Below, in pieces: positions 14,405 to 52,330 of a stretch of DNA of 64,000 bases (position 1 is its first letter; each line of letters starts with the position of its first letter). The notes beneath the pieces are model-generated. The model searched no databases. It saw only the letters and a program-made list of their open reading frames with translations, and was not told the DNA's origin. Position numbers and translations under genes: made by a program. Source of the stretch: Solibacillus palustris (GTDB taxonomy: Bacteria; Bacillota; Bacilli; Bacillales_A; Planococcaceae); the NCBI RefSeq assembly GCF_022549215.1, contig NZ_JAKZFC010000005.1, forward strand, positions 225,440 to 289,439, read 5' to 3'.

Positions 14405-14536
14405 TTATCGAACAAGCATCTCTTAACTTGATGAATCAAGTTAAGCCTCCGGCGGATGTCACAGATTTTTAGAGGAATTTTTCGAGCAAACTCGAAAAAA
14501 TCTGGACGCAATTACGCCGAGGCGTAATTGATTAAG
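14405..14536 (+). repeat. Dispersed hairpin repeat, family 1, copy A
   Basis: Copy A fills most of the 250-bp gap between metP and metQ. It has a perfect 11-bp hairpin CTTAACTTGAT/ATCAAGTTAAG (14422-14445), the shared block CCTCCGGCGGATGTCACAG, a middle hairpin TTTTTCGAG/CTCGAAAAA (14478-14499), and a terminal perfect 10-bp hairpin CAATTACGCC/GGCGTAATTG (14509-14530). Copies B (45590-45710, same strand) and C (52203-52330, opposite strand) share the blocks and the order. No ORF inside. It may set the metNP:metQ expression ratio by processing or partial termination. Confidence 0.85.
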
Positions 14537-14619
14537 AGGTGCCTCTGTATAGTGAATATCCAGAATATAAAAAATGTTCGAAAAGTTTAGGTGAGAAAAA
14601 ATATAGAATAGAGGAAAAA

Positions 14620-15465
14620 ATGATGAAAAAATTATTATTTTCAGTAGTATTAGGTGCTTCAATCCTTGCATTAGCAGCATGTGGAACAGATGAAAAATCA
14701 ACAACAGGCAGTGATTCAACAGCAGAGCCAACAACATTAGTAGTAGGTGCTTCAAACACACCTCATGCGGTTATTTTAGAACAAGTAAAACCAATTTTAG
14801 AAAAGCAAGGCATTACATTAGAAATTGAAACTTACCAAGATTACGTATTACCGAACCAAAACTTAGATTCTGGTGACTTAGATGCCAACTACTTCCAACA
14901 CATCCCTTATTTCGAAGGACAAAAAGCGGAATTTGGTTATGATTTTGTAAACGCTGGTGGTGTTCATATCGAGCCAATCGGTATTTACTCTAAAAAATAT
15001 GCATCTTTAGAAGAGCTTCCTGAAGGTGCAACAATTCTATTATCAAACTCTGTAGCTGACCACGGTCGTATGCTTTCATTACTTGAAGCACAAGGCTTAA
15101 TTAAATTAGCTGATGGTATCGATAAAACAAAAGCAGAGCTTAAAGATGTTGTAGAAAATCCAAAAAATTTAGTGTTTGATCATGATACAGCTCCAGAAAT
15201 GTTATTCCAAATGTACGATAACGAAGAAGGTGACGCGGTATTAATTAACTCAAACTTCGCAATCGACAACGGTATTAACCCATTAGAAGACGCAATCGCA
15301 ATCGAGTCTGGTGATTCACCATACGTGAACATCATTGCTGTTCAATCTGGTGATGAAGATTCAAAAGAAATTAAAGCATTAGTTGAAGCATTACACTCAA
15401 AAGAAATTCAAGACTTCATCGTAGAAGAATGGGGCGGCTCAGTAGTTCCAGTTGACGGGAAGTAA
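14620..15465 (+). CDS. metQ: Methionine-binding lipoprotein MetQ
   Basis: About 281 residues of the NlpA/MetQ family. A lipoprotein signal peptide ends in the lipobox LAAC (Cys21), followed by a Thr/Ser-rich linker, then the binding domain starting TTLVVGASNTPHAVIL. Anchored to the outer face of the membrane, it delivers methionine to MetNP. Two adjacent ATGs (14620, 14623) follow GAGGAAAAA; either may be used. It is separated from metP by repeat copy A, so its translation is independent. A bidirectional terminator follows. Confidence 0.95.
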   Translation: MMKKLLFSVVLGASILALAACGTDEKSTTGSDSTAEPTTLVVGASNTPHAVILEQVKPILEKQGITLEIETYQDYVLPNQNLDSGDLDANYFQHIPYFEGQKAEFGYDFVNAGGVHIEPIGIYSKKYASLEELPEGATILLSNSVADHGRMLSLLEAQGLIKLADGIDKTKAELKDVVENPKNLVFDHDTAPEMLFQMYDNEEGDAVLINSNFAIDNGINPLEDAIAIESGDSPYVNIIAVQSGDEDSKEIKALVEALHSKEIQDFIVEEWGGSVVPVDGK

Positions 15466-15483
15466 CATAATAATTGTATTTAC

Positions 15484-15524
15484 AAAAAAACCATTTTCCA
15501 GTTTGTTCTGGAGAATGGTTTTTT
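15484..15524 (+). terminator. Bidirectional terminator between metQ and gltC
   Basis: AAAACCATTTTCCAG pairs with CTGGAGAATGGTTTT (one G-U), TTTGTT loop, T-run on both strands. Confidence 0.85.
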
Positions 15525-15526
15525 GA

Positions 15527-16429
15527 TTATTGAAACCTCGACAGACGTGAATAGAACTTGGATACAAAATCCACAAATACTTGTTCAGATGGAGCAAGGT
15601 CCCGTGTTGTTGGCGCGATGATGCCGACCGTTCTACGGATTGTAGGACTTGCAATTGGCATCTTCACCGTCATACGCGGTGTCGAATCGTAAAGTGAGCT
15701 TTCCGGGAGTAGTGTAACTCCGATTCCTGCAGCAACTAAACCTTTCAATGCATCCATATCTTCACCCTCAGATGTAATCTTTGGAACGAAGCCGGCTGAA
15801 CGACAAGCGTCGACGGCAACTTTTTGTAAAATATATCCTTCTGGGAACAATACAAAGTTGTCATTTTTTAAATCAATTAAATGAATTGAGTCTTGTTTTG
15901 CTAATGGATGTGTCGCGGGTATTAAAGCGTGAATGCTTTCACTAAAAAGTACGGTTGTTTCTATCGCCTCATCTTTTGGTGGTAATGGACCAAGTAATGC
16001 TAAATTAAGTTCACGATTTTTTACGGCTTCAATCAAATATTTATAGGAACCTTGGCGTAAATGGAATGAAATATCTGGGTACTCTTTTTTGAATGCAGAA
16101 ATGATGGTTGGTAAAACATAGCTAGCTAAACTTGTAGGAAAGCCAACTTTAATTGTTCCTTTTGCTGGGTCTAAATACTCTTCAACTTGCTTGGCAGCAA
16201 AATCGATGGCCTTCAGTGCGGTAATGCTGTGCTCTAAAAAAGTTTTACCAATCGGTGTCAGTTTGACGTTACGTCCGACACGTTCAAAAAGTGGTGCTCC
16301 GAGCTCTTCTTCTAAATTGGCAATTTGTCGGCTAATTGCAGACTGTGCAACGTGTAAATACTCAGCAGCTTCGGATATATGTTCACGTTCTGCTACCTCG
16401 ACAAAGTAACGTAATTGTCGTAATTCCAT
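15527..16429 (-). CDS. gltC: LysR-type activator of glutamate synthase, GltC
   Basis: A 300-residue LysR regulator. The N-terminal winged HTH is very close to B. subtilis GltC: MELRQLRYFVEVAEREH, then AAEYLHVAQSAISRQIANLE (about 23-42). The effector domain runs from about 90 to 295 (GTIKVGFPTSLASYVLP). The ATG follows GGAGTGGGATTT. GltC activates gltAB in response to 2-oxoglutarate and is antagonised by glutamate and RocG in B. subtilis; here it is divergent from gltA as in that system, and a glutamate dehydrogenase lies at 58.4 kb. Confidence 0.96.
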   Translation of the reverse strand: MELRQLRYFVEVAEREHISEAAEYLHVAQSAISRQIANLEEELGAPLFERVGRNVKLTPIGKTFLEHSITALKAIDFAAKQVEEYLDPAKGTIKVGFPTSLASYVLPTIISAFKKEYPDISFHLRQGSYKYLIEAVKNRELNLALLGPLPPKDEAIETTVLFSESIHALIPATHPLAKQDSIHLIDLKNDNFVLFPEGYILQKVAVDACRSAGFVPKITSEGEDMDALKGLVAAGIGVTLLPESSLYDSTPRMTVKMPIASPTIRRTVGIIAPTTRDLAPSEQVFVDFVSKFYSRLSRFQ

Positions 16430-16445
16430 AAATCCCACTCCATTC

Positions 16446-16460
16446 ATCTAAAAAGTAGAT
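16446..16460 (+). promoter_or_regulatory. Candidate GltC binding site
   Basis: ATCTA-N5-TAGAT, an inverted repeat with the T-N11-A form used by LysR proteins. It lies in the gltC-gltA divergent gap, 17 nt from the gltC start and about 22 nt upstream of the proposed gltA -35. Confidence 0.5.
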
Positions 16461-16481
16461 TGTTTCTATCCAAACTATATA

Positions 16482-16511
16482 TTGTTTATATTATTTCGAA
16501 AACTTTAAAAT
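16482..16511 (+). promoter_or_regulatory. Candidate gltA promoter
   Basis: TTGTTT (16482-16487), 18-nt spacer, TAAAAT (16506-16511). A weak -35 fits an activator-dependent promoter. Confidence 0.4.
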
Positions 16512-16548
16512 GTAAATACGTTATTGAAAGAATGAGGGGGAATTAAAT

Positions 16549-19500
16549 ATGAGTTTTCACCAGTTACCACAAGCACAAGGTTTATACGATCCACAGTTTG
16601 AACATGACGCATGTGGCATCGGGATGTACGCAAATATGAAGGGAAAACCTTCACATCAAATCGTGAAAAATGGTTTAGAAATGTTATGTCGCTTAGAACA
16701 CCGTGCTGGACGTGGGGGAGACGGTAGAACAGGCGATGGTGCAGGTCTAATGGTTCAAATCCCAGATGCTTTCTTCAAAATCAACTGTCCAGAACTAAAT
16801 TTACCTGAAAAAGGTGAGTACGGCGTTGGGCAAGTTTTCTTCACGGAAAGTGACAGCGAACGCCAACAAATTGAACAAAAAATGAATGAACTAATCGTAC
16901 AAGAAGGGCAGGACTTAATTGGCTGGCGAACAGTTCCAACAAATAAAGAAAATTTAAGTGAGATTGCAAAATCAAGTGCACCAATTATTCGTCAAGTATT
17001 TATTCGATCCAAAACAAGTGATTCACAAAGCTTTGAGCGTAAGCTGTATTTAATCCGAAAGCAGTTAGAGCACTGGGCTGACAAGCAAGAATTTGAATTG
17101 TATGTACCAAGTCTTTCAAGCCAGACGATAGTATTTAAAGGTTTACTAGCTCCAGAGGAAGTAAGTGACTTCTACATCGATTTACAAGATGAAAGCTTCG
17201 TATCGGCATTAGCACTAGTACACTCGCGTTATTCAACGAACACATTCCCATCTTGGAAACGTGCACACCCAAACCGCTACATTATTCATAACGGGGAAAT
17301 TAACACATTGCGTGGGAACATTAACTGGATGCGTGCCCGTGAGCAACAATTTGTTTCGGAAGCGTTTGGGGATGATTTAGAAAAGCTATTACCAATCATT
17401 GATACAACAGGTTCAGATTCATCGATGCTTGATAACGCATTTGAATTTTTCGTATTAGCAGGTCGTACACCAGCAGAGACGGCGATGATGATGATTCCAG
17501 AGCCTTGGACAGAAAATCCACGTATTGAGGAAGACCGTAAAGCATTTTATCAATATCATGCAAGTTTAATGGAGCCATGGGATGGTCCAACAGCAATTTG
17601 TTTCACAGATGGTAAGCAAATTGGTGCGATTTTAGATCGTAACGGCTTACGTCCAGGTCGACTTTACGTAACAAAAGATGATCACGTAATTTTTTCTTCT
17701 GAAACAGGCGTTGTTGATTATGGAGAAGAAGATATTTTATATAAAGATCGTTTAAGTCCAGGCCGCATGCTGTTAATCGATTTAGAGCAAGGTAAAATTA
17801 TTTCGGATGAAGAGCTGAAGGCGGAAATGGCAGCAGCAGAGCCTTACGCACAGTGGTTACAAGATAATATGTTAAAGCTTGAAGCGGATGAAGAGATACA
17901 AGTTCAAGTAAACGACATTACATTACGTCAAAAAATTCAAGGCTACACATATGAAGATGTGAAAAAGTATATCGTACCACTTGCAAAGGACGGTAAGGAT
18001 CCACTCGGCTCAATGGGGAATGACTCGCCACTTGCGGTATTATCAGAACGCCCGCAGTCTTTATTTAATTACTTTAAGCAATTATTCGCACAAGTAACAA
18101 ACCCACCAATCGATTCCATTCGGGAGCATGTTGTTACATCTACTATGACAATGCTAGGTGCGGAAGGTGATTTACTTCATCCAACAGCACAAAACGCACG
18201 ACGTATTATTTTAGAAACGCCGGTATTAACTACGGCTGAGTACGAAAAGTTAATGAATAATGGTGATAGTGACTTTGAAGTAGCAGAAATCTCAATGAAA
18301 TATACAGAATCTTTAGAAAGTGAATTAAACCGTATTAAAACAGAAGCGGAAGCAGCAATTTTTGGTGGAAGAACAATCATCGTTTTAGATGATTTTGTAG
18401 AGGATGCAAAGCAATTAACAATTCCAGTACTACTTGCAGCAAGTACTATACATCAGTATTTAGTGCGTATCGGATTGCGTACAAAAGCAAGTTTAGTCGT
18501 TAATAGCGCGGAAGTTCGTGAAGTACATCACTTCGCCGCATTAATTGGCTTTGGTGTCGATGCAGTTCATCCTTATTTGGCCTATGCAACAATTGCGCAG
18601 GCAATTGAAGAAAAGCATTTAGCATTACCTTATGAAAAAGCAGTTCAAAAATATCGTAAAGGTGCTGCTGAAGGTGTTGTAAAAGTCATGTCGAAAATGG
18701 GTATTTCAACAGTACAGTCATACCGTGGAGCGCAAGTGTTCGAAGCGGTGGGTATTTCAAAGGCGGTAACCGACGAATACTTTACAGGAACTGCTTCTCA
18801 AATTGATGGTATCGATTTACAAACAATCGGAGAAGAGGCAAAACGTCGCCACGAGGCAGCGTTGAATTCAATGACTGCCGAATTACAGTCAGGTTCAGAA
18901 TTCCAGTGGCGTGCTGATGGTGAGCACCATGCATTCAATCCAAAAACAATTCACACATTACAATGGGCAACACGTAAAAATGATTACGGTCTATACCGTA
19001 TGTTTGCGGAAATGGCAAATGAGGAGCGCATCGGTTTTTTACGCAACTTATTTGATTTCAAAAAGGCAGAACGTCGTTTACCGATGGAAGAAGTAGAATC
19101 TGTAGACTCAATCGTTAAACGCTTTAAATCAGGTGCGATGTCGTTCGGTTCGTTGTCAAAAGAGGCGCATGAAACATTAGCCATCGCAATGAATAAATTA
19201 GGAGCACGCTCAAACTCAGGTGAGGGCGGTGAAGACCCGGCACGTTATGAACTAAATTCTAATGGCGATAATCGTCGTTCAAGTATAAAGCAAATTGCGT
19301 CAGGTCGTTTCGGTGTGAAATCAGATTATTTAGTAAATGCAGATGAATTACAAATCAAAATGGCACAGGGCGCAAAACCAGGTGAAGGTGGTCAATTACC
19401 GGGAAATAAAGTATATCCATGGGTTGCTGAGGTTCGTGGCTCAACACCAGGTGTCGGCTTAATTTCACCGCCACCACACCATGATATTTATTCAATTGAA

Positions 19501-21072
19501 GATATGGCAGAACTAATCCATGACTTAAAAAATGCGAACCGCTATGCACGTATTTCAGTAAAACTTGTAGCTAAAGCGGGTGTTGGGACCATCGCAGCGG
19601 GCGTTGCAAAAGGTGCAGCTGACGTTATCGTGATTTCGGGTTATGACGGTGGTACAGGTGCATCTCCGAAAACGTCCATTAAACATACAGGGTTACCATG
19701 GGAGCTTGGTTTAGCAGAGGCACATCAAACGTTAATGTTAAACGGCTTACGTGATCGCGTTGTATTAGAAACAGACGGTAAGTTAATGACAGGTAAAGAT
19801 GTGGTAATGGCAGCGTTACTAGGAGCGGAGGAGTTCGGTTTCGCAACAGCGCCACTAATTGTTTTAGGTTGTGTGATGATGCGTGCTTGTCATTTAGATA
19901 CATGTCCAGTTGGGGTAGCCACACAAAACCCAGCGCTACGAGCGAAATTTATGGGCAATGCGGATCATGTGGTAAGTTATATGCGTTTTGTGGCAGAAGA
20001 AATGCGTGAATACATGAGTATTTTAGGGTTCCGCACAGTAGAAGAAATGGTGGGCCGTACAGATGTCTTGCAAATTTCAGCGCGTACAAAACAGCATTGG
20101 AAAGCAAGTCAGCTTGATTTATCGGCACTGCTACACCAAATGCAAGGTACACGTACGAAGCAGCAAGAGCAAGATCATCAAATCTCAGAAAGCTTTGATG
20201 TGCGTGAGTTATTGCCAAAAGTCGAGCAATCGATTGCAAATAAAGAGGTAGTACAGCTAAGCTATCCAATTAAAAATACGGATCGTGCAATGGGTACAAT
20301 TGTAGGAAGTGAAATTTCACGTAAATACGGTGAAGTTGGTTTACCAGATAACACAATTCACCTTACGTTTACAGGGCATGCAGGACAGAGCTTTGGTGCT
20401 TTTACTCCACGAGGTATGGCAATGCGTGTTATTGGTGACGTCAATGACTACTTCGGAAAAGGCTTATCGGGTGGTAAAGTTGTTGCGATTGCACCAATCA
20501 AAGGCGATTTTGAGAAAAACGTCATTGCAGGGAATGTTTGCTTATATGGTGCAACGAGCGGGCAAGCGTTTATAAATGGTCGAGCAGGTCATCGCTTTGG
20601 CGTTCGTAACTCTGGTGCAAATATTGTTGTAGAGGGTATTGGCGACCACGGCTGTGAATATATGACAGGTGGGAAAATCGTCGTATTAGGCGATGTTGGT
20701 CAAAACTTCGGGGCGGGGATGTCAGGTGGTATTGGCTACATTTTACCGAGCGACGAAGCGCACTTTAAAGCGCAATGCAATATGGAAATGATTCAATTTG
20801 AAAAGTTAAAAGAAGCACATGAAATTGAGCAAGTACGCCAGTTAATTATTAAACACTTAGAAGAAACAGAAAGCTCATATGCACTTGATGTTTTAGCGAA
20901 GTGGACAGAATTTGTACCGAAGTTTGTCAAGGTAGTACCGACAGACTATAAGGCAATCATCGAAAGAATCGAGCGTCATAAATTAAATGGGTTAACAGAT
21001 GATCATGCGGCAATGCAAGCGTTTGTGGAGGTAACGGGAAGTCAGAAAAAGCTTGTGAGTTCGAAATTATAG
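16549..21072 (+). CDS. gltA: Glutamate synthase (NADPH) large subunit
   Basis: 1507 residues, typical for the family. The class II glutamine amidotransferase domain begins after a short propeptide at Cys22 in EHDACGIGMYA. Then come the central domain, the FMN-binding synthase domain (about 790-1160; RSNSGEGGEDPARY, GYDGGTGASPKTS), and the 3Fe-4S cysteines in GCVMMRACHLDTCPVG (about 1107-1120). The C-terminal GXGXG beta-helix repeats span about 1240-1450 (GLSGGKVV, NGRAGHRFGVRNSG). It transfers the glutamine amide to 2-oxoglutarate with GltB supplying electrons. ATG follows GAGGGGGAA. Controlled by divergent gltC. Confidence 0.98.
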   Translation: MSFHQLPQAQGLYDPQFEHDACGIGMYANMKGKPSHQIVKNGLEMLCRLEHRAGRGGDGRTGDGAGLMVQIPDAFFKINCPELNLPEKGEYGVGQVFFTESDSERQQIEQKMNELIVQEGQDLIGWRTVPTNKENLSEIAKSSAPIIRQVFIRSKTSDSQSFERKLYLIRKQLEHWADKQEFELYVPSLSSQTIVFKGLLAPEEVSDFYIDLQDESFVSALALVHSRYSTNTFPSWKRAHPNRYIIHNGEINTLRGNINWMRAREQQFVSEAFGDDLEKLLPIIDTTGSDSSMLDNAFEFFVLAGRTPAETAMMMIPEPWTENPRIEEDRKAFYQYHASLMEPWDGPTAICFTDGKQIGAILDRNGLRPGRLYVTKDDHVIFSSETGVVDYGEEDILYKDRLSPGRMLLIDLEQGKIISDEELKAEMAAAEPYAQWLQDNMLKLEADEEIQVQVNDITLRQKIQGYTYEDVKKYIVPLAKDGKDPLGSMGNDSPLAVLSERPQSLFNYFKQLFAQVTNPPIDSIREHVVTSTMTMLGAEGDLLHPTAQNARRIILETPVLTTAEYEKLMNNGDSDFEVAEISMKYTESLESELNRIKTEAEAAIFGGRTIIVLDDFVEDAKQLTIPVLLAASTIHQYLVRIGLRTKASLVVNSAEVREVHHFAALIGFGVDAVHPYLAYATIAQAIEEKHLALPYEKAVQKYRKGAAEGVVKVMSKMGISTVQSYRGAQVFEAVGISKAVTDEYFTGTASQIDGIDLQTIGEEAKRRHEAALNSMTAELQSGSEFQWRADGEHHAFNPKTIHTLQWATRKNDYGLYRMFAEMANEERIGFLRNLFDFKKAERRLPMEEVESVDSIVKRFKSGAMSFGSLSKEAHETLAIAMNKLGARSNSGEGGEDPARYELNSNGDNRRSSIKQIASGRFGVKSDYLVNADELQIKMAQGAKPGEGGQLPGNKVYPWVAEVRGSTPGVGLISPPPHHDIYSIEDMAELIHDLKNANRYARISVKLVAKAGVGTIAAGVAKGAADVIVISGYDGGTGASPKTSIKHTGLPWELGLAEAHQTLMLNGLRDRVVLETDGKLMTGKDVVMAALLGAEEFGFATAPLIVLGCVMMRACHLDTCPVGVATQNPALRAKFMGNADHVVSYMRFVAEEMREYMSILGFRTVEEMVGRTDVLQISARTKQHWKASQLDLSALLHQMQGTRTKQQEQDHQISESFDVRELLPKVEQSIANKEVVQLSYPIKNTDRAMGTIVGSEISRKYGEVGLPDNTIHLTFTGHAGQSFGAFTPRGMAMRVIGDVNDYFGKGLSGGKVVAIAPIKGDFEKNVIAGNVCLYGATSGQAFINGRAGHRFGVRNSGANIVVEGIGDHGCEYMTGGKIVVLGDVGQNFGAGMSGGIGYILPSDEAHFKAQCNMEMIQFEKLKEAHEIEQVRQLIIKHLEETESSYALDVLAKWTEFVPKFVKVVPTDYKAIIERIERHKLNGLTDDHAAMQAFVEVTGSQKKLVSSKL

Positions 21073-21085
21073 GAGGGGTTCTAGC

Positions 21086-22567
21086 ATGGGGAAATCAACA
21101 GGATTTATGGAATTTAAGCGTGAGAAGGTTCAGGAAAACGTACCACTAGAGCGTATTTCGAGCTGGAATGAATATACGAGGAAGCTTACAGACGAAAAAT
21201 TACAAACACAAGGTGCACGCTGCATGGATTGTGGCACTCCATTTTGCCATATGGGGATTGAAATTCGTGGTACGGCAGCAGGTTGTCCAATCAACAACGT
21301 CATCCCAGAGTGGAATGATTTAGTATACAAAGGGCAATGGGAAGAAGCATTGAAGCGTCTGCATATGACGAATAACTTTCCAGAATTTACAGGGCGCGTA
21401 TGTCCAGCGCCATGTGAAGGTTCTTGTACGCTAGCGATTACTGACCCAGCCGTTGCGATTAAATCCATTGAACGTACGATTATTGACAAAGGATTTGATA
21501 ATGGATGGGTAACACCACGCATACCACAAATTCGCTCAGGTTACAAAATAGCGGTTGTTGGTTCGGGTCCAGCAGGTTTGGCGGCGGCAGATCAGTTAAA
21601 CCAAATGGGGCATTCTGTTACAGTTTTCGAACGTTCAGACCGCTTTGGTGGCTTATTAATGTACGGGATTCCCAACATGAAGCTTGAAAAAGAAGTCGTT
21701 GAACGCCGGGTGAATTTATTATCATTAGAAGGTATTCAATTTATCGCTAATACAGAAGTCGGTAACGATATTACAAAAGAACAACTACAACATCAGTATG
21801 ACGCGGTTATTTTATGTACCGGTGCGCAAAAGCAACGTACACTGCATATGGAAGGCAACGACGCGGGCAATATCCATTTAGCGATGGAATATTTAACTGA
21901 TGTGACAAAAAGTTTACTAGAATCTAATTTTGAAGATAAAAAAGCTTTAAATGTGGAAGGCAAAGATGTGATCGTCATTGGTGGTGGAGATACGGGTGCA
22001 GACTGCGTAGCAACAGCACTTCGTCAAAATTGCCGTTCGGTGTACCAGTTTGGTAAACATCCGCAACAAGCAACAACGCGTACAGAGGATACAATGTGGC
22101 CGAAAGACCCAAATGTTTACACGTTAGATTACGCATATGCAGAGGCTGATGCAAAATTCGGTCGCGATCCACGCGAGTACTGCATTCAAACGACCAAAAT
22201 TGTGAAGGATGCGCATGGCAACGTCAAAGAGCTCCACACAATCCAAATGGAAAAAATCTTAGGTGAAGATGGTTTCCATTACTTTAAAGAGTTACCAGGC
22301 ACAGAAAAAGTATGGCCAGCACAGCATGTATTCGTAGCGATTGGTTTTGAAGGCGCTGAGAAAGAAACGCCTAAGCATTTTGGAGTGGAATTAACAAACA
22401 ACCGAATTCGCGCTTCCATCAAGGATTACGAAACGAGTGTACCCAGTGTATTTGCAGCAGGCGATGCACGTCGTGGTCAAAGCTTAGTTGTCTGGGCAAT
22501 TAAAGAAGGTCGCGCCGTTGCAGCGAGCGTTCATTATTATTTGCAGGAGCAAGCGAAGAAATTTTAA
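21086..22567 (+). CDS. gltB: Glutamate synthase (NADPH) small subunit
   Basis: 493 residues. The N-terminal Fe-S cysteine region has CMDCGTPFCHMG (about 46-57), GCPINN and CPAPCEGSC. An FAD Rossmann motif VVGSGPAGLAAAD lies near 156-168 and a second NADPH motif VIGGGDTGADC near 296-306. It oxidises NADPH and feeds electrons through FAD and 4Fe-4S clusters to GltA. It lies 13 nt after gltA with an AGGAGGGG site, so the two are one operon. Confidence 0.97.
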   Translation: MGKSTGFMEFKREKVQENVPLERISSWNEYTRKLTDEKLQTQGARCMDCGTPFCHMGIEIRGTAAGCPINNVIPEWNDLVYKGQWEEALKRLHMTNNFPEFTGRVCPAPCEGSCTLAITDPAVAIKSIERTIIDKGFDNGWVTPRIPQIRSGYKIAVVGSGPAGLAAADQLNQMGHSVTVFERSDRFGGLLMYGIPNMKLEKEVVERRVNLLSLEGIQFIANTEVGNDITKEQLQHQYDAVILCTGAQKQRTLHMEGNDAGNIHLAMEYLTDVTKSLLESNFEDKKALNVEGKDVIVIGGGDTGADCVATALRQNCRSVYQFGKHPQQATTRTEDTMWPKDPNVYTLDYAYAEADAKFGRDPREYCIQTTKIVKDAHGNVKELHTIQMEKILGEDGFHYFKELPGTEKVWPAQHVFVAIGFEGAEKETPKHFGVELTNNRIRASIKDYETSVPSVFAAGDARRGQSLVVWAIKEGRAVAASVHYYLQEQAKKF

Positions 22568-22599
22568 TTTAAGTGTAGAGTAAGAAATTTTATATTTAA

Positions 22600-22634
22600 A
22601 AAGGGGCTCTTTTATATGGAGTACCCCTATTTTG
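22600..22634 (+). terminator. gltAB terminator
   Basis: AGGGGCTC and GAGTACCCCT form an imperfect stem with a bulged A, followed by ATTTTG. Confidence 0.6.
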
Positions 22635-22652
22635 CTCGGTTTAGAAATAAGC

Positions 22653-24533: not shown

Positions 24534-24551
24534 TTAAGGAGGACGACGAAG

Positions 24552-39261: not shown

Positions 39262-39498
39262 ATGACAGAAACAGAACAATATCAACAAGTACAAGAAGTT
39301 TTAGATAAATTACGTCCGTTCCTATTACGCGATGGCGGTGACTGTGAATTAGTAGACATTGAAGATGGTATCGTAAAATTACGTTTATTAGGTGCATGCG
39401 GTAGCTGTCCAAGTTCTACAATCACGTTAAAAGCTGGTATCGAACGTGCCTTATTAGAAGAAGTACCAGGCATTATTGAAGTAGAGCAAGTATTCTAA
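39262..39498 (+). CDS. yutI: NifU C-terminal domain protein YutI
   Basis: 78 residues, the NifU-like cluster carrier domain alone. The cluster site is [11 protein letters not shown] (Cys46, Cys49), two proteins sharing one 4Fe-4S. It acts as a carrier downstream of SufBCD, together with YutM. ATG follows AAGGGAGTCGAGC. Followed by a strong terminator. Confidence 0.93.
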
Positions 39499-41860: not shown

Positions 41861-41867
41861 CTTTTCT

Positions 41868-44541: not shown

Positions 44542-44562
44542 TGTAGCAAAAATTAATGGAAA

Positions 44563-44596
44563 AAGACATGTGAAGGTCACCTTTGCATGTTTTTTC
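44563..44596 (+). terminator. ykuI terminator
   Basis: GACATG-AGGT / ACCT-CATGT hairpin followed by TTTTTT. It ends 18 nt before the NUDIX gene. Confidence 0.7.
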
Positions 44597-44614
44597 ATAT
44601 ACGGGGGATTAATA

Positions 44615-45115: not shown

Positions 45116-45256
45116 CCCTTATAAAATGATAAAAATCACGTACAATATGAATGAATTTTGACAATTTGGTTCTTAATTTCATTATTTTGGATGTACAATT
45201 GAAAGCATAACCCCAATCATGTAAAATTATGAGAGATTATTGGGGGTATACATAAC

Positions 45257-45583
45257 ATGAATGACGTTTCGTTAGTACAATTAATTATTTCGGTTGTGTT
45301 ATTTTTTGTCATGTTTTTCGGAATTGGATTTTTATTAAACATGCTATTACGCATGACGTGGTTAATGGCCGTACTTTATCCGATTGTTGTTGTATTTATT
45401 ATTGATGAGGTGAGCTTTTTAGATTATATTTTCAAGCCGGGAACAGCTTTTCCAGCTTTAGTCGATAAAGCTCAAGCGTTGCATTTAGTAGATATATTAA
45501 TTTTAACTGGTGGTTTTGGTGGTGCGATTGTAGCGGGCTTTGTCATGATCGCGCTTCGAAAAGCTGGCTATCGAATGTTTTAA
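45257..45583 (+). CDS. yuiB: YuiB family membrane protein
   Basis: 108 residues with three membrane segments (about 8-30, 34-54, 80-102). It matches YuiB by size, topology and its place near yuiD and pepA (yuiE). Function unknown. ATG follows TGGGGGTATACATAAC. Confidence 0.8.
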   Translation: MNDVSLVQLIISVVLFFVMFFGIGFLLNMLLRMTWLMAVLYPIVVVFIIDEVSFLDYIFKPGTAFPALVDKAQALHLVDILILTGGFGGAIVAGFVMIALRKAGYRMF

Positions 45584-45589
45584 CCTCAT

Positions 45590-45710
45590 ACAGCAGATGT
45601 TCAAACACCCGCTGTAAGAAGTAAAAGCTTCCGGCGGATGTCATGGATTCGGCTTTCCGCGAGCGCAAAGCCGAATCCAGACGCAATTAAGCCAAGGCTT
45701 AATTGATTTT
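45590..45710 (+). repeat. Dispersed hairpin repeat, family 1, copy B
   Basis: It starts with ACAGC...GCTGT around a TTCAAA loop (45590-45615). The shared GCTTCCGGCGGATGTCATG block follows, then a perfect 12-bp hairpin GGATTCGGCTTT/AAAGCCGAATCC (45645-45678), and a perfect 10-bp hairpin CAATTAAGCC/GGCTTAATTG (45684-45705). The terminal hairpin differs from copies A and C at one pair, changed on both arms (C-G to A-T), so pairing is kept. The middle hairpin has a different sequence but the same position. Confidence 0.85.
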
Positions 45711-45716
45711 AGATGG

Positions 45717-45755
45717 AAAAAACACGCTTACAATTATTGTGTAGGCGTGTTTTTT
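45717..45755 (+). terminator. Terminator downstream of yuiB
   Basis: AACACGC-TACA / TGTA-GCGTGTT hairpin with A- and T-runs. It lies between repeat copy B and the large element. Confidence 0.88.
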
Positions 45756-45756
45756 G

Positions 45757-46000
45757 TCTGTTAAGGAAATAATAAATTATCGAATTGTGGATTACTTTTA
45801 CGAAGATTTATCTTCCGTCTAGGCTAAAGCGCCAGCCCCTCGGCCATTTCGATCCCTCCTGCAAAAGTGGTGGAACGTTTACTTTTGCGTCGGGTCCTCC
45901 AATGTCTGAGGCTCACACGATGTGAGTCATTGGAGGCATGCCACATGGACGTGGCGTTTTGCCTACTCGGGGCTGAACAGGCGCATTAGCGCTTTTGTTC
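45757..46000 (+). repeat. Structured dispersed element, family 2, copy 1
   Basis: About 244 bp. A 60-bp leader (TTAAGGAAA...) leads to GTCTAG (45817). The closing stem AGCGCC+AGCCCC (45828-45839) pairs with GGGGCT (45969-45974) and GGCGC (45980-45984). Inside are hairpins GCAAAAGT/ACTTTTGC (45861-45888), CCTCCAATG/CATTGGAGG (45896-45936) with an inner GCTCAC/GTGAGT, and GCCAC/GTGGC (45940-45955). It ends GCGCTTTTGTTC. Copy 2 is at 54811-55055; 50 nt (45914-45963) are identical. Elements with TCTAG..CAGCGCC...GGCGC..GCGCTTTT ends are common between Bacillaceae genes; I know no established function. Confidence 0.88.
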
Positions 46001-46001
46001 T

Positions 46002-46478
46002 TTACATCATAAGCGCATACCATGTAAATGACAGTACTATTCCCGAAAGTCCACCGATAAATACCTCGCTTTTTTTGTGGCCTAATAATGTTTTTAAGTC
46101 TTGTATTTTTTCTTGTTCATTCATTTCTGGCCAACGTTTGATCTCTTTGAAGAATAATTGTAAGTCGTGGCGCAATTCATTTAGAACAGCAGCATGTTGA
46201 CCTGCTTGAAAGCGTACGTGACTGGCATCGTACATAACAATACCAGCAAGCATCGCCGCTACCGCAAATGTAGGGGAGCCAAAGCCTGTTTCAATTCCTA
46301 TGGCCGATGCGATGCTTGTTACAGCTGCAGAATGTGAACTTGGCATCCCCCCTGTAGAAGTAAGTAAGTTCCAATCTATTTTCTTTGTCATAATAAAGTT
46401 AATGGGAATTTTTAATATTTGTGCAAAAAGAATCGCGCAGACACCTAGCCATAGTGGCGTATTTTGTAACAGCTCCAT
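46002..46478 (-). CDS. yuiD: YuiD, divergent PAP2-family membrane protein
   Basis: 158 residues, about four membrane segments. STGGMPSSHSAAVTS (about 41-55) is the PSSHS phosphatase motif of the PAP2-related DUF212 family, followed by YDASHVRFQAGQHAAVLNEL (about 82-101). Probably a membrane phosphatase-like enzyme; substrate unknown. ATG 46478 follows GGTGGGAATA. The stop abuts the structured element at 45757-46000. Confidence 0.88.
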   Translation of the reverse strand: MELLQNTPLWLGVCAILFAQILKIPINFIMTKKIDWNLLTSTGGMPSSHSAAVTSIASAIGIETGFGSPTFAVAAMLAGIVMYDASHVRFQAGQHAAVLNELRHDLQLFFKEIKRWPEMNEQEKIQDLKTLLGHKKSEVFIGGLSGIVLSFTWYALMM

Positions 46479-46767
46479 TATTCCCACCCACTTTCTTGTA
46501 ATTGCTAATATTATAGCATTAAAGGTAACATTTTTTTACATACGAATATTTTTGTCAGAACATTAAATCGGTGAAAAATATAGATTCAGTTTTCCTTTGA
46601 AAAAGATAACTCGAGTGAAAATAGCGAGTATTGTGTTTTTATTATGCGGATTACACTGAAAAATATATACTTTCCTCCCCACTAAAAATCCGAAAACTTA
46701 ATTTGTTTCGTTCCCCGAATTAACTTTTTTGTATATAATGGAGCTATACATTAGGAGGCGTTTTGTT

Positions 46768-48270
46768 ATGAATATAGAAACTACAGCACAAACATTTGAT
46801 ACTCTTACTTCTGAAACATTAATTGTCGGAGTACAAAAACACCGCGAGCAAATGAAAAATTGGCCAGCATTTATCGAATTTTACGGTGAAACAGTAGATG
46901 CTTGGTTACGTGCCGGTGAAATTATTACCGATGCAAAAAAAATTACGAAGCTACCTTATGCAGGTTCACCGGCTTCATTAAAGCGTGTATACTTCGTTGG
47001 TTTAGGCGAGCGCAAAAACCTAACAGCAAATGAATTACGTGAAGTCTTTGCTGCAGTTGGGAAAGAGTTAAAAGCAGCGAAAATTGGTAATGTAACACTT
47101 TGGGTAGAATCATTTACAACTGATACGCTAGAAGAAGCAGAAGTTGCTTATTTAGCAGGTGAAGGTCTAAATTTAGGCTTTTATTCTGTACAAAACTATA
47201 AAACATCTTCAAACGAAGTAGACGTATACTTCGACCAAATCCAATTCGTAACAGAAGCGGCGATGGACGATGTGGTCGCAAACTTTGAAGTTGGTAAAAT
47301 TTATGCCGATGCGGTAAATGAAGCACGAACACTAATTAACTTACCACCAAACTTACTAACTGCAACGGATTTAGCAAATTACGCAACAGAGCTAGCCAAC
47401 CAATATGATTTAGAAATCGAAGTGTTAAATAAAGCACAAATTGAAGAGCTTGGTATGGGCGGAATTTTAGCGGTTAATAAAGGTTCGGTTGAAGAGCCAC
47501 GCTTAATTACGATCAAATACCAAGGGAAACAAAAATGGGAAGATGTAATTGGCTTTGTTGGTAAAGGTGTAACGTATGATACAGGTGGATACTCATTAAA
47601 ACCGCGTGAAGGTATGGTTGGTATGAAGGGTGACATGGGAGGCGCTGCTGCTGTACTAGGAGCAATGCGTATTATCGGTGAAACACGTCCAAAACAAAAC
47701 GTTGTCGCAGTAATTGGTTCTACGGACAATATGGTTTCAGGTGAAGCGTTTAAACCAGATGATGTCATTACAATGTACAATGGTAAAACAGTAGAAGTAT
47801 TAAATACAGATGCTGAAGGTCGATTAGTATTAGCCGATGCTACAACTTATGCAAAACAACAAGGCGCGGATTATTTAATCGATGTCGCTACATTAACAGG
47901 TGGGGTAATTGTCGCGCTAGGTAAAGATAAAACAGGCGCACTAACAAATGATGAAGAATTTTTCGAAGAGTTTATGGGTGCTGCCATTGAAGCAGGGGAA
48001 TTCGTATGGCGCTTACCTTTAACTGAAAGCGACAAAAAACGTATTCGTAAATCGGATGTAGCCGACTTAAATAACTCACCAGGGCGCGATGGTCATATGA
48101 TTTTCGGTGGAGGCTTCGTTGGTGAATTCGCAGAAAATACACCATGGATTCACTTAGATATCGCGGGGACATCAGATGCTGATGCACCACATGTATTAGG
48201 TCCTAAAGGTGGTACGGGCGTTATGGTTCGTACACTTGCTACGTTAGTAGAGTTACGCGATAACGAATAA
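46768..48270 (+). CDS. pepA: Leucyl aminopeptidase (M17), YuiE/PepA
   Basis: 500 residues, M17 family. The signature NTDAEGRLVLAD (about 349-360) and metal/catalytic residues in VGKGVTYDTGGYSLKP (about 262-277) and GDMGGAAAVLGA are present. It cleaves N-terminal residues, especially Leu, from peptides using two metals; hexameric and cytoplasmic in the family. ATG 46768 follows TAGGAGGCGTTTTGTT. Confidence 0.96.
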   Translation: MNIETTAQTFDTLTSETLIVGVQKHREQMKNWPAFIEFYGETVDAWLRAGEIITDAKKITKLPYAGSPASLKRVYFVGLGERKNLTANELREVFAAVGKELKAAKIGNVTLWVESFTTDTLEEAEVAYLAGEGLNLGFYSVQNYKTSSNEVDVYFDQIQFVTEAAMDDVVANFEVGKIYADAVNEARTLINLPPNLLTATDLANYATELANQYDLEIEVLNKAQIEELGMGGILAVNKGSVEEPRLITIKYQGKQKWEDVIGFVGKGVTYDTGGYSLKPREGMVGMKGDMGGAAAVLGAMRIIGETRPKQNVVAVIGSTDNMVSGEAFKPDDVITMYNGKTVEVLNTDAEGRLVLADATTYAKQQGADYLIDVATLTGGVIVALGKDKTGALTNDEEFFEEFMGAAIEAGEFVWRLPLTESDKKRIRKSDVADLNNSPGRDGHMIFGGGFVGEFAENTPWIHLDIAGTSDADAPHVLGPKGGTGVMVRTLATLVELRDNE

Positions 48271-48387
48271 CAATAACAAGCCCCTTTTACGGGCATATGA
48301 TCTCCCATCGACGCTTTCAAAGCCTTAATGCGGACGTCTTATTGTAGTTTTTAAACAAAGTCATGAAGTTTATAAAAAAAGTTTGAT

Positions 48388-48421
48388 GAAAAATCCTGAG
48401 TTGATACGCAGGATTTTTCTC
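48388..48421 (+). terminator. pepA terminator
   Basis: GAAAAATCCTG and CAGGATTTTTC, an 11-bp stem. The rest of the 305-bp pepA-VOC gap shows nothing recognisable. Confidence 0.85.
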
Positions 48422-48576
48422 GTTTCATAAACAAGCCATAGTATTGAATCATGTTTTTTATGTAAGGTTAGCGAGCGATGGGTGAGGTAAACAAAAAGAG
48501 TTTTGAGAAGATAAAGATTACAATAAATACGGAGTAAGAATTTTTGCATATCGAAGATGAAAGAAGGATTAATAAA

Positions 48577-48999
48577 ATGATACAATCTGTTGTACATATT
48601 GCTTTAGTTGTTCAAGATTATGATGAAGCTATTGAGTTTTACACAAAAAAACTACATTTTACGTTAATTGAAGATATATATCAACCAGAACAAGATAAAC
48701 GATGGGTAGTAGTATCCCCACCTGGCTCATCTGGTACTACAATATTACTTGCAAGGGCTTCAAAACCCGAACAAACATCTATTATTGGTAATCAAGCAGG
48801 AGGAAGAGTTTTTCTATTCCTTGGGACAGATGACTTTTGGCGAGATTATAATGAAATGATAGGTAAGGGAATTGAATTCGTTAGAGAACCAAAAGAACAA
48901 TCATATGGTATTGTTGCGGTATTTAAAGATTTGTACGGAAACTTATGGGATTTAATCCAATTTGAAAAAAATCATCCTATGTTCCAACGAGTAAAATAG
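48577..48999 (+). CDS. VOC (glyoxalase-fold) family protein
   Basis: 140 residues, vicinal oxygen chelate fold. Two beta-alpha-beta units: IALVVQDYDEAIEFYTKKL (about 9-27), with metal-binding His about residue 8, and VFKDLYGNLWDLIQF (about 118-132) with the terminal Glu-type strand. Members act as glyoxalases, dioxygenases or antibiotic-modifying enzymes; the substrate is not predictable here. ATG 48577 follows AGAAGGATTAATAAA. More AT-rich than pepA. Confidence 0.85.
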   Translation: MIQSVVHIALVVQDYDEAIEFYTKKLHFTLIEDIYQPEQDKRWVVVSPPGSSGTTILLARASKPEQTSIIGNQAGGRVFLFLGTDDFWRDYNEMIGKGIEFVREPKEQSYGIVAVFKDLYGNLWDLIQFEKNHPMFQRVK

Positions 49000-49405
49000 A
49001 CTAAAACCTTTAGAGCACTTATCAAAGTACTCATATATTTATAAAGCATACAAAACGAACCTAAATAATATTTCCAAATCAAAGGTAGGGAATACAAGGG
49101 AAAGCAATAAACGCTGTTAAATTAGTGTTTGTAGCCTTTTTTATGAACATTGTTATGCGTGTTTTTATGAAACGGTATATAAACATAGCTATAAAAAGAC
49201 CTTCCTGATTTTGCACAAAATCACTGCAGATATGCTGTCTAAATAAAAAACGTGCATGTATAGACAATTTATTAATGCTGTAAATTTACCTTTTTAAGAT
49301 TAGCTTATACAAAACAATAGCCTACAATTCGAGAATTATAGGCGAGTAACTAATAGCAAGAAATGCGGTAGAATATGCTAGGAAAAAGGGGAGGAGGCTT
49401 TACAA
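49000..49405 (+). other. Intergenic region upstream of the Tyr/Pro-rich gene
   Basis: About 405 bp without a supported gene. A hairpin GCCTACAATTC/GAATTATAGGC (49320-49342, one mismatch) lies 60 nt before the next gene. A 62-codon minus-strand frame has no ribosome site. Confidence 0.4.
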
Positions 49406-49603
49406 TTGGTGAATCGTTATCCATATGGTGGCTTTGGCGGCTTTTTTCCATTCGGCGCACCATTTCTAGGAGGATTTTTAGGGAGTTTTTTAGGGGGTTC
49501 ATTTAACCGTTATCCGCAACCATACTATTACTATCCGCCGTATCCATATCCATATCAACCGTACCAACCTTATCCACCATATCGCAGACACCGTAATTGG
49601 TAA
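49406..49603 (+). CDS. Small Gly/Phe- and Tyr/Pro-rich protein
   Basis: About 65 residues. The first half is Gly/Phe rich (GGFGGFFPFGAPFLGGFLGS), the second a Tyr/Pro tract (YYYYPPYPYPYQPYQPYPPY) ending RRHRNW. TTG 49406 is favoured since GAGGAGG lies 8 nt upstream; GTG 49409 is possible. Composition is like small spore-coat or surface proteins of Bacilli, which is only an analogy. No family recognised. Strong ribosome site suggests it is expressed. Confidence 0.65.
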   Translation: MVNRYPYGGFGGFFPFGAPFLGGFLGSFLGGSFNRYPQPYYYYPPYPYPYQPYQPYPPYRRHRNW

Positions 49604-49697
49604 GGCCATACGTATAACATAAGAACATTCTTGCTCACCCCACCATTGTTAGCTATGATAAGTAAAGAAATATTACGAGCTTTGAGGGAATTAATTT

Positions 49698-50258
49698 ATG
49701 AAAAATCCATATTTATATGGTTACTTACCACTATTTACAATCATTTTATTTAGTTTTACATTTGGTATTTTTGGAGTATCTGAATCGCTTCAGTTTTTTC
49801 AATCTATCGGTGTATACAATGGGATGCGTGAGTTTTTATCGGATTTAGAGTTGCGTTTTGTGCTATTAATTGTATTTGCATTATTATTTTTCATGGTTTT
49901 TTCGGCATTAAAGTTGATTGGTGAAACAATTCATGAACTTGGCATGTTATTTTTTTCGAAGGATAAAGAAGGTCAAACTATTCATGCAGCACGCGGTGGC
50001 TATGTGATTTTCTTTTTCGGTGCGTTTGCATCAGTTATTGGAATTCAATCTTGGATACTATTAATTGCTGTATTTTTAACGACTACGTTCTGTTATTTCA
50101 TTTATTACGTCTATAAAATGAGCCAATACATGTCGGTTGTTGGTGTAATTGGGCTTATATTCTTTGAAGTGTTATCGTGGTGTTTATTATTAGCGTTAAT
50201 CGTTTACGCGATTGTGAAATTGTATAATGGTGTAATAGCGAGTTTGCCGTTTGTATAA
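49698..50258 (+). CDS. yufK: YufK family membrane protein (DUF5366)
   Basis: 186 residues with five membrane segments (about 8-28, 50-72, 97-117, 120-138, 150-175). It matches YufK in length, hydrophobic profile and position near pbpD. Function unknown. ATG with a TTGAGGGAATTAATTT site upstream. Strong terminator downstream. Confidence 0.78.
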   Translation: MKNPYLYGYLPLFTIILFSFTFGIFGVSESLQFFQSIGVYNGMREFLSDLELRFVLLIVFALLFFMVFSALKLIGETIHELGMLFFSKDKEGQTIHAARGGYVIFFFGAFASVIGIQSWILLIAVFLTTTFCYFIYYVYKMSQYMSVVGVIGLIFFEVLSWCLLLALIVYAIVKLYNGVIASLPFV

Positions 50259-50261
50259 TGT

Positions 50262-50309
50262 AAAAAGCTTGTTTGTCTTAAGTTAATTCAAGACAAACAA
50301 GCTTTTTTA
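50262..50309 (+). terminator. yufK terminator
   Basis: AAAAAGCTTGTTTGTCTT and AAGACAAACAAGCTTTTT, 18-bp perfect stem; works in both directions. Confidence 0.95.
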
Positions 50310-50334
50310 TGTGGGTAGGAAAATATAAAATGTT

Positions 50335-52188
50335 CTAATTGGTTATGGCATTGAAAATTGAGAAATGAATCTTTTGCTTTTCAATTGCTTCCATCGAGCG
50401 TGGTGTATCATAACCGATCCATACGGCTGTCGTATAATCATTTGTTAAGCCTGCAACCCAATAATCTTTAAACTGATTGGTAGTACCTGTTTTTGCACCG
50501 AGATAGCCTGAAGAGCTATATAATCCTTTTCCTGTACCGTTTGTGACTACTTTATGCAATAAATCCCGCATCGTATTGACAGTGCTTGCCGACCAAATTT
50601 TCTCACGTTCACGTGGCCAACTATAGATTGTTTCCCCTTGTAAATTTGTTACTTTACGAATACTACGTGCGGGTGCATAAAAGCCGTCAATAAAGCTAGA
50701 ATACGCATCGGCTAATTCAAGTGAGGTAACACCGTAAGTTAACCCTCCTAAAGCTGACGCATATGTACGATCCTTATCGATAATCGAGCGGAATTGGAAA
50801 CGATCGATATATGAGAAGGCGGTATCCACACCAATTGTATTGTAAAGCCTTAATGCAGCTGTATTAATACTGTCTTGGAATGCCTTCTCAATCGTTACGT
50901 TGCCATACCAAATCCCTCTGTAGTTTTCAGGACAGAAATTACCTACACAATATTGTGCGCCACTAACAATGGAATTTTTTGTAGCGGTTGTTGTTTCGAA
51001 ATACGGGGCAAACACGCTAATTGGTTTAAAGGCAGAACCTGGTTGACGAGGGGATTGAAATGCCCGATGTAAATCATACTTTTGATAATTCTTGCCACCG
51101 AAAATGCTGACGATTTCACGTGTTTCATTATTGATAACTGTCGCACTCGCTTGTAATTCTGAGTGAGATAAAATATCGTTAATTGCTGCCTCATCTTGCT
51201 TCTGCTTATCTGGCTGGAGCGCAGTATAGATATGGATACCTTGCTGTAATAGGGTATCAATTTTCTTTTGTAGCTCTAGCTGTAAAAATTCTTTTTCCAT
51301 TTTGTCTGTCGTAGAAGCAATTTGTTCATTATAACCTGTTTGCTCGCCGATGAGCCATTTCAACTCTTGTAAAACATAAGTGCTATAACTTGGATACTGT
51401 TGAATCTTTGTTTTAACAGCGAGTTCAATTGGCTGTTGCTTATGCATAGCTGCTTCTTGTAAGGTTAATATTTGATGTTCAGTTAATTTATCAAGTAAGC
51501 GTTCTTGACGGGCTTTCGTATTGTCAAAGTTTCGTAATGGATCATACAAGGATGGGTTATTCGGAATCGCGGCAATAAACGCCATTTCCGCTATCGTTAG
51601 TTTTTCGAGCGGGCGATCAAAATAATAGGTTGCCGCTGCACCGATACCATATACCTGATTGCTAAAGTACATTTCATTTAAGTACATTTCTAAAATTTCT
51701 TCTTTTGAATAAACTTTTTCAAGCTCATACGAGTAAAATAGCTCCATTAGTTTACGTTCATATGTTTTGTCGACTGATAAATACCGCATACGGACGAGCT
51801 GTTGCGTAATGGTCGACCCACCTTGCTGAATCGACTGCTCATTGCTATTGGCAATAAATGCACGTGCAATCGCGCTGACATCAAAGCCGATATGATCATA
51901 AAAACTTTCATCTTCACTAAAAATAAAAATATCCTTCACCACTTCAGGAATATCATCAAGCTTTAGAGGCTGTGACCATTCTGTATATTCTTCACTAAAA
52001 ATTTCATTGTTCGCATCGTACAATGTGATTGGTAATGTCGAAACAGTATTTTCAGGAAGCTCCATCGATTTTTCGATAAGTTGTTCGTGCTGTTGTGCTT
52101 TTGCGAGTTCTTTCCATACTTCGCTTCCGAGTAAAAGTAGTAAAGGGATGCTACATAAGATAAGCATGTAGCCAAAAACTTGTTTCAT
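50335..52188 (-). CDS. pbpD: Class A penicillin-binding protein 4 (PbpD)
   Basis: 617 residues. An N-terminal membrane anchor (about 4-21) is followed by a glycosyltransferase-51 domain (about 60-230; EDESFYDHIGFD with Glu92, GGSTITQQLVR) and a transpeptidase domain (about 330-600; SxxK at Ser385 in PGSAFKP, SxN in DSINTAA, KTG in GAKTGTTN). All catalytic motifs are present, so it both polymerises and cross-links peptidoglycan. B. subtilis PbpD is 624 residues and lies beside yufK. ATG follows AGGGGGTAATTT, which directly adjoins repeat copy C in the leader. Confidence 0.95.
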   Translation of the reverse strand: MKQVFGYMLILCSIPLLLLLGSEVWKELAKAQQHEQLIEKSMELPENTVSTLPITLYDANNEIFSEEYTEWSQPLKLDDIPEVVKDIFIFSEDESFYDHIGFDVSAIARAFIANSNEQSIQQGGSTITQQLVRMRYLSVDKTYERKLMELFYSYELEKVYSKEEILEMYLNEMYFSNQVYGIGAAATYYFDRPLEKLTIAEMAFIAAIPNNPSLYDPLRNFDNTKARQERLLDKLTEHQILTLQEAAMHKQQPIELAVKTKIQQYPSYSTYVLQELKWLIGEQTGYNEQIASTTDKMEKEFLQLELQKKIDTLLQQGIHIYTALQPDKQKQDEAAINDILSHSELQASATVINNETREIVSIFGGKNYQKYDLHRAFQSPRQPGSAFKPISVFAPYFETTTATKNSIVSGAQYCVGNFCPENYRGIWYGNVTIEKAFQDSINTAALRLYNTIGVDTAFSYIDRFQFRSIIDKDRTYASALGGLTYGVTSLELADAYSSFIDGFYAPARSIRKVTNLQGETIYSWPREREKIWSASTVNTMRDLLHKVVTNGTGKGLYSSSGYLGAKTGTTNQFKDYWVAGLTNDYTTAVWIGYDTPRSMEAIEKQKIHFSIFNAITN

Positions 52189-52202
52189 AAATTACCCCCT
52201 AA

Positions 52203-52330
52203 TCAATTACGCCTCGGCGTAATTGCGTCCAGATTTTTTTCGAGCTCGCTCGAAAAACTCCCCTAAAAAATCTGTGACATCCGCCGAGGCATTAACTTGA
52301 TTCAGCCGGGGTTTGAACCCCCACTGAATA
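52203..52330 (-). repeat. Dispersed hairpin repeat, family 1, copy C
   Basis: Opposite orientation to A and B. Read on the minus strand: ATTCAG...CTGAAT around GGGGTTCAAACCCC (52300-52329), then CTCGGCGGATGTCACAG, a middle hairpin TTTTTCGAGC/GCTCGAAAAA-like, and CAATTACGCC/GGCGTAATTG (52204-52225). The terminal hairpin ends 15 nt before the pbpD ATG, so the copy forms the pbpD leader. The arm sequence equals copy A, while the loop dinucleotide is read as GA in both. Confidence 0.85.

Follow-up and report, generated by a model that had tools for sequence, protein, structure and literature searches.

The 64,000-nucleotide stretch of Solibacillus palustris DNA analyzed here (the window; contig NZ_JAKZFC010000005.1, positions 225,440 to 289,439) carries three copies of a gene-less repeat built of a left, a middle and a terminal hairpin, which raises the question of whether this structure serves as an RNA or as a means of movement. 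The original prediction, made from the sequence of the window, had described a family of three copies with shared blocks and paired stem changes, all of which can be seen in the sequence. We found that the three copies are a small sample of a large family of hairpin-ended repeats, that they are insertions with identifiable empty sites, and that their variable middle hairpin is a slot for modules that include the catalogued structure Bacillaceae-1 (RF01690); the last two points had been missed.

Empty sites, ends and target of the repeat

The contig C38 of the own genome (G000; 289 kb) was compared syntenically with a genome of the same species (G041; 96.5% identity, 236 kb aligned) and with a relative (G013; 86.6%, 185 kb). 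The window copies A, B and C were all present in G041 and absent from G013, and copy A was absent from the relative G011 as well. The element was missing at all 10 sites alignable to G013, the three window copies included; the sites 192178, L037 and 282220 had no orthologue in that genome. Within the species, the own copy at C38:125973 was empty in G041. When the left flank up to TTTA was joined to the right flank after TTGAT and set against the empty site, the difference was 0 for C38:39326, copy A (against G013) and copy C of G041, and 1 base for the own copy C, copy B and 125973, and the alignment at site 42499 had three one-base gaps. The element reads ACTTG...AATTGAT, and the cleanest joins place it 3' of TTTA with no duplication of the target.

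Among the 54 copies extracted from the own genome, 40 gave the left body within one mismatch, and the left flank was exactly TTTA in 27 of them; conservation stopped at position -4 on the left and there was none after the right end. TTTA pairs with the bases just after the left stem in many copies, as judged from a list of arms that contains spurious ones where the 5' slot holds Bacillaceae-1. The upstream reading frame ended 5 nt into the left-end match in 11 of the 54 copies, the first A of the element completing its stop codon each time (TAA in ten, TGA in L012). The hairpin-ended repeats are very likely to be mobile.

The borders of the window copies, set from the empty sites and mapped ends, are listed below with their parts. 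The places originally given for the copies stood but the borders did not, copy C being 97 bp longer at its 5' end; the absence of an open reading frame or transposase inside the three copies was borne out.

14426..14532, + strand: copy A, 107 bp, empty in G013 and G011
14422..14445, + strand: left hairpin of copy A, CTTAACTTGATGAATCAAGTTAAG, whose first four bases, CTTA, are the pre-existing target flank
14451..14461, + strand: conserved linker of copy A, GGCGGATGTCA
14458..14507, + strand: middle hairpin of copy A (module slot), short form
14509..14530, + strand: terminal hairpin of copy A, CAATTACGCC-GA-GGCGTAATTG, followed by AT at the right end
45583..45707, + strand: copy B, subfamily B, 125 bp, empty in G013 and present in G041
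45640..45682, + strand: middle hairpin of copy B, subfamily form GGATTCGG...CCGAATCC
45684..45705, + strand: terminal hairpin of copy B, CAATTAAGCC-AA-GGCTTAATTG
52202..52427, - strand: copy C, long left-end form with extra predicted hairpins, 226 bp, empty in G013 and present in G041
52275..52285, - strand: conserved linker of copy C, GGCGGATGTCA
52227..52278, - strand: middle hairpin of copy C (module slot), short form
52204..52225, - strand: terminal hairpin of copy C

A miniature inverted-repeat element moved by a DDE transposase would likewise be small, palindromic, without an open reading frame and present in many copies. The two ends of this repeat, however, are not inverted copies of each other by eye, so that terminal inverted repeats are lacking together with target duplication in the clean joins (G011 at copy A, 3 bases short, being the exception), and a direct repeat of about 9 bp is indeed seen in a neighbouring repeat family, family II, so that such an element is distinguishable here. 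We regard this origin as highly improbable.

Family size, structure and genomic context

The linker GGCGGATGTCA had 50 matches in the own genome against 0 for its reversed control, and the 20-mer GGCGGATGTCACAGATTTTT, with up to two mismatches, occurred 75 times in the own genome, 167 times in G002, 139 times in G009 and at most 14 times in any of the 12 remaining genomes of the genus that were searched. The three window copies scored 114.6, 103.2 and 75.9 bits with a covariance model to which they had contributed. A model built from the 41 short-form copies among the 54 detected 90 copies in G041 (E ≤0.001; 150 of 2675 first-look candidates scored). A family of three copies, as first described, was thus a considerable underestimate. 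Planococcaceae is a GTDB family name, and NCBI taxonomy divides its genera concerned here between Caryophanaceae and Bacillaceae. Under stricter filters and with 35 candidates scored per genome, the model matched in 62 of 121 genomes of the family and 13 of its 19 genera.

An exact scan for the 20-mer in genomes of named species picked out 71 stretches, which bear the labels Sporosarcina, Lysinibacillus, Psychrobacillus, Metasolibacillus, Filibacter, Bacillus ndiopicus and other Bacillus sp. Four further labels in this set (L225, L243, L250 and L269; GC 41-44%) read Arthrobacter beigongshangensis, which is probably a swap, Sporosarcina beigongshangi having a neighbouring taxid. No paper describing this repeat family was found among titles and the starts of abstracts, in a coverage outside which most subscription journals lie.

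The 41 own-genome copies had 92.4% of their cells in standard pairs and a double change in 13 of 29 pairs, a count reached by 0 of 500 shuffles, and versions of the structure slid along the alignment were 32-47% paired. Across genera, 52 sequences (the 3 window copies and 49 of 53 short-form references, L204, the second L225, L207 and L241 having been dropped as aberrant) were 95.0% paired with a double change in 14 of 26 pairs, again reached by 0 of 500 shuffles, and slid versions were 22-43% paired. These counts rest on a structure that we named ourselves, RNAalifold on the own-genome alignment having given only 7 middle-stem pairs, and related copies can beat shuffles without constraint. 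A covariance-model search of the genome and the family had been proposed as a check on the original prediction, and both its matches and the covariation above shuffles agreed with it. The data support constraint on the structure of the repeat. The further claim that selection acts on structure and not on sequence held for its first half only, as the linker is the best-conserved sequence of the repeat. One terminal-hairpin pair was broken in 12 of the 41 copies, as expected for decaying copies.

The middle hairpin of copy B, earlier taken to be unrelated in sequence, is a subfamily form without the internal bulge, found also at L041 and L011:4835, and differs from copies A and C by compensatory changes (C-G to U-A and A-U to G-C). 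Gene conversion, which had been offered as an explanation, is not needed for such subfamily differences. In copy C, a long-range alternative pairing is predicted to compete with the terminal hairpin: within 52202-52290, CGCCGAGGC in the terminal hairpin can pair instead with GCCTC..GGCG ahead of the linker, so that the two predicted folds exclude each other. Extra hairpins of the GACTGTGACGAAAGCGAAGCGACAGTCACA type were seen ahead of the terminal hairpin in L235, L254, L257 and L265, and a similar one in long left ends such as that of copy C.

The strong covariation and the very stable folds (z -5.8 for copy C folded as RNA) are also what a dispersed family of functional RNAs would show, whose transcripts would act within mRNA in processing, stability or protein binding and whose structure would be selected as RNA. 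Two features of the context point the same way. The two neighbouring frames, assigned mechanically, were both co-oriented with the element in 29 of the 54 copies, opposed in 5, mixed in 18 and undetermined in 2. The same bkd spacer was occupied in five Psychrobacillus-type loci (L211, L214, L227, L232 and L239), in G018 and G053 (placed by coordinates) and in the own genome. In addition, Bacillaceae-1 has been catalogued as a small RNA, the reverse complement of which was proposed to bind CsrA, according to the passages seen of PMC4333381. Functional RNAs do not, however, readily account for copies that are not kept in place (the 10 of 10 sites in G013), for internal deletions between same-species orthologues, for the broken terminal pair or for unrelated hairpins in the slots. 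Conserved bkd placement was also rejected as a sign of function: in loci fetched from 61 genomes the spacer held the element in only 1 of 30, G018 and G053 notwithstanding, and three empty spacers on the plus strand (L277, L281 and L289) read TTTTAA at the stop codon. Repeated insertion at a stop codon is the likelier account of the recurrence. Overall, we consider a functional RNA family quite unlikely, and infer that the conserved structure is a substrate for mobility.

Copy A lies between a BPD_transp_1 (permease) gene and an NlpA-lipoprotein gene, ABC-transporter genes that we take to be metI/metQ-like, and by eye it sits in the loop of an intercistronic hairpin, GCATCTC...GAGGTGC. In this spacer (14415-14545), relatives have a short hairpin with arm sequences that differ yet still pair, by eye, and G002 has a reverse-oriented copy of the element. 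Copy B completes with its first base, A, the TAA stop codon of a YuiB-domain gene (45257-45583), and copy C is neighboured by a penicillin-binding-protein gene and an MFS gene. In an Rfam scan of the window, the copies themselves had no match at gathering score, and the only match was a SAM riboswitch (RF00162, 86.9 bits, 12435-12537) upstream of the ABC-transporter genes between which copy A lies. Copy B with the following terminator scored 35.4 bits as trpB RF04312 against a cut-off of 59, which was taken as chance.

Exchangeable modules and Bacillaceae-1

In an Rfam scan of six own loci at relaxed threshold, Bacillaceae-1 was found in L015, L022, L034 and L042, in the 5' slot or the middle hairpin (52-74 bits), and not in L009 or L010; none of the three window copies matched it. 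The RF01690 model covers the 67-nt module only and has a gathering score of 35, above which slot modules rose to as much as 79.5 bits (L252). Among the 71 loci from named species, the middle slot held Bacillaceae-1 in forward orientation in 7 (L203, L212, L222, L247, L254, L256 and L263, with a partial module in L258) and in reverse in 5 (L231, L245, L248, L252 and L268). The 5' slot held it forward in 10 (L212, L220, L231, L252, L254, L255, L256, L263, L266 and L268, that of L254 lying 45 nt away) and reverse in none of the 71. By eye, L222, L247 and L254 carry further hairpins inside their Bacillaceae-1 modules.

Slots were also seen to differ between same-species orthologues. The middle slot of C38:39326 holds a short hairpin in the own genome and Bacillaceae-1 in G041, and the 5' slot of C38:115989 holds Bacillaceae-1 in the own genome and none in G041. 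The variable middle hairpin is therefore shown to be a slot for exchangeable modules, Bacillaceae-1 among them. The module is not confined to this repeat: in a third repeat family (III) at C38:64792-65221 (about 4792-5221 of L105), it occurs in G041 but not in the own genome.

RF01690 matched in 15 of 25 relatives, all 15 of the own genus. In G041, 93 matches (89 over the cut-off; 150 of 448 candidates scored) were compared with the 90 cores at a limit of 15 nt, which placed 21 directly 5' of a core, 14 inside one and 58 elsewhere. Of the last group, five by our reading lie 15-19 nt from a core and belong to the 5' class, and 3228361 lies in a core unlisted by the model search. Somewhat over half of the Bacillaceae-1 modules of G041 thus stand outside this repeat family.

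The other repeat family near the window copies, family II (GTCTAGGYTAAAGCGCCAGCCCCTC...GGCGCTTTAGCGCTTTT, about 240 bp), occurs at 45755-45993 and 54808-55053 of the window, with sites lacking it in G041. By eye, it is placed after the T-tracts of terminators and carries Bacillaceae-1-like hairpins in the opposite direction, and its copy at C38:51936 has the direct repeat of about 9 bp, TTTCTTATA.

As read from the loci, internal deletions and module fusions are frequent, and the former are carried by same-species orthologues too. Such deletions, together with what we read as fused products of two Bacillaceae-1 modules (L183 and L185), would fit the alternative that the modules are ancestral domains lost from some copies and that Bacillaceae-1 is no mobile cassette. 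We find this unlikely, given the reverse Bacillaceae-1 in the middle slot of five loci (two of Bacillus ndiopicus and three of Psychrobacillus species) and a short form that has a complete hairpin of its own, unexpected from simple deletion. The standalone Bacillaceae-1 modules that were examined (G041 3170172 and 3361027, and L022:1925) sit in another repeat or beside hairpins. Bacillaceae-1 is likely, at least here, a cassette nested in mobile repeats, and may enter the slots by its own mobility. The literature passages on Bacillaceae-1 that we obtained contain neither the host element nor its slots and nesting, the likeness being limited to the 5'- and middle-slot modules that match its model. 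The general kind of repeat is already known; nested exchangeable modules, with Bacillaceae-1 as one of them, were not met in the literature found.

A possible mechanism and the search for its enzyme

Because the left target is retained, no duplication is seen and the ends are hairpins, we read the repeat as IS200/IS605-like, and we lean, with modest confidence, towards a gene-less element that moves as single-stranded DNA with its enzyme supplied in trans. A hairpin-recognizing nuclease of the HUH type would cut at the TTTA flank and the terminal TTGAT, and TTTA would be chosen in a guide-like manner by pairing to the TAAR that follows the left stem. Insertion between the TTTA and the A of a stop codon would restore a stop, and gene ends would thereby be safe landing sites. 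ISDra2 and IS608 are described as inserting 3' of a short target without duplication in the part of PMC8612924 that we could consult. Ten IS605-type TnpB elements of G002 (L156-L165) share a part that starts with TTTTAT and ends with AGTTCAA, with no flank duplication by eye. As in PATEs, insertion of our repeat is 3' of a conserved target without duplication (27 of the 40 left flanks read exactly TTTA, and the joins are clean at 39326, at copy A when set against G013 and at copy C). Unlike the ends of IS200/IS605 elements and PATEs, those of the repeat match no autonomous Y1 element in the genome or genus.

Several candidate mobilizers were tried and rejected. Y1/IS200 transposases have no representative in the own genome, and ten IS200 loci of the same genus have different ends; TnpB/IS605 is absent from G000, G041 and G009, and the ten aligned of 19 matches in G002 also end differently. 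A known insertion sequence end that would explain the palindromes, the finding that would have undermined the original prediction, was thus not encountered among these loci. RAYT-like Y1 genes were set aside on the grounds that five of nine Y1 loci from other genomes carry another palindrome. These palindromes, of the type GTGCCAGGCAC, lie on one or both sides of the Y1 genes of L301-L305, which we label RAYT-like and which form a candidate Gram-positive REP-RAYT system. Among 12 sources scanned, one copy of the element lay downstream of a Y1 gene in L305/G092 (35.9 bits) and, weakly, in L307/G138 (22.8 bits), and none had the element on both sides of such a gene. No transposase-bearing version was seen by eye in the stretches read out of 20 G041 left-end stretches without a listed core, among the left ends listed; those read were internal-deletion, degenerate or full copies.

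REP/REPIN sequences are described in the portion seen of PMC6006769 as high-copy, intergenic, palindromic and linked to the trans-acting Y1 enzyme RAYT. Our repeat shares the first three properties but is longer, has no GTAG/GTGG foot by eye and is not found on both sides of a Y1 gene. The bcr1 repeats of the Bacillus cereus group are short, average 39 and reach up to 130 copies, and are linked to TTTAT (PMC6542083, in part), and the 18 bcr families together lie within transcripts in 84/165 and 62/155 cases (PMC3446304, in part). By description rather than by sequence, our repeat resembles bcr1 in its shortness, its many copies and its TTTA-type target, but it belongs to another bacterial group, and the passages on bcr1 that we saw contain no modular slots. 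The main rival to an HUH nuclease is a bcr1-like site-specific recombination, in which a recombinase would join the repeat to a TTTA-type target. It gains from the lack of a Y1 enzyme in key genomes, yet no recombinase was linked to the repeat, no search having been aimed at recombinases, and we hold it to be on the unlikely side.

Several observations weigh against movement as single-stranded DNA by such an enzyme, or against mobility itself. Y1_Tnp (PF01797) is missing in 7 of the 15 genomes searched (G000, G041, G009, G008, G044, G101 and G117), most of them high-copy; to this are added the differing ends of the IS200 loci and the palindromes of another kind around the Y1 genes of L301-L305. 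The hairpins of the repeat lie at its tips and are not subterminal. The TTTTAT of the G002 elements is a putative edge, read from the part that they share. Of the 40 left flanks, 13 depart from exact TTTA, and no left end was obtained for 14 of the 54 copies. At copy A, the empty site of G011 falls 3 bases short of the join, a difference that would equally fit a 3-bp duplication, and the sites 56592, 115989, 159044 and 255720 are too diverged or poorly aligned to judge. In favor of such movement, copies in G041 follow a strand bias (+ 36 and - 7 in the first 1.64 Mb, 1 and 1 in 1.64-2.05 Mb, - 20 and + 3 in 2.05-3.28 Mb, 5 and 5 in 3.28-3.69 Mb, and - 10 and + 2 in 3.69-4.1 Mb), but this may follow genes; the genes of C38 are themselves biased (153 vs 64), so that the effects of replication direction and of gene direction are hard to tell apart. 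Of the 14 control genomes, that of Bacillus subtilis has Bacillaceae-1 as well, and 8 such structures are given for this species in the part seen of PMC8208703. Finally, no transposition was observed, and absence from G013 could in principle reflect loss.

Since Y1 is absent in high-copy genomes, IS200 ends differ and Y1 loci are flanked by another palindrome, a mobilizer of this repeat may have been lost or gone unrecognized. A wider picture, which we put forward tentatively and rate somewhat below an even chance, is that Planococcaceae harbor a nested world of mobile hairpins, in which cassettes insert into the hairpins of others in either orientation, with up to three levels of nesting, Bacillaceae-1 is a cassette and not an RNA gene, and the carrier is moved by a structure-reading enzyme with no recognizable Y1.

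Bacillaceae-1, which was catalogued among structured RNAs in 2010 with no function named, gains in this way a testable identity as a cassette in mobile repeats. The covariation seen here may reflect selection for mobility rather than RNA function, which is a warning for the covariation-based discovery of RNA families. Stop codons as harmless landing sites would offer such repeats a simple route. A widespread bacterial repeat is now defined with its ends and target, so that its mobilizer can be sought.

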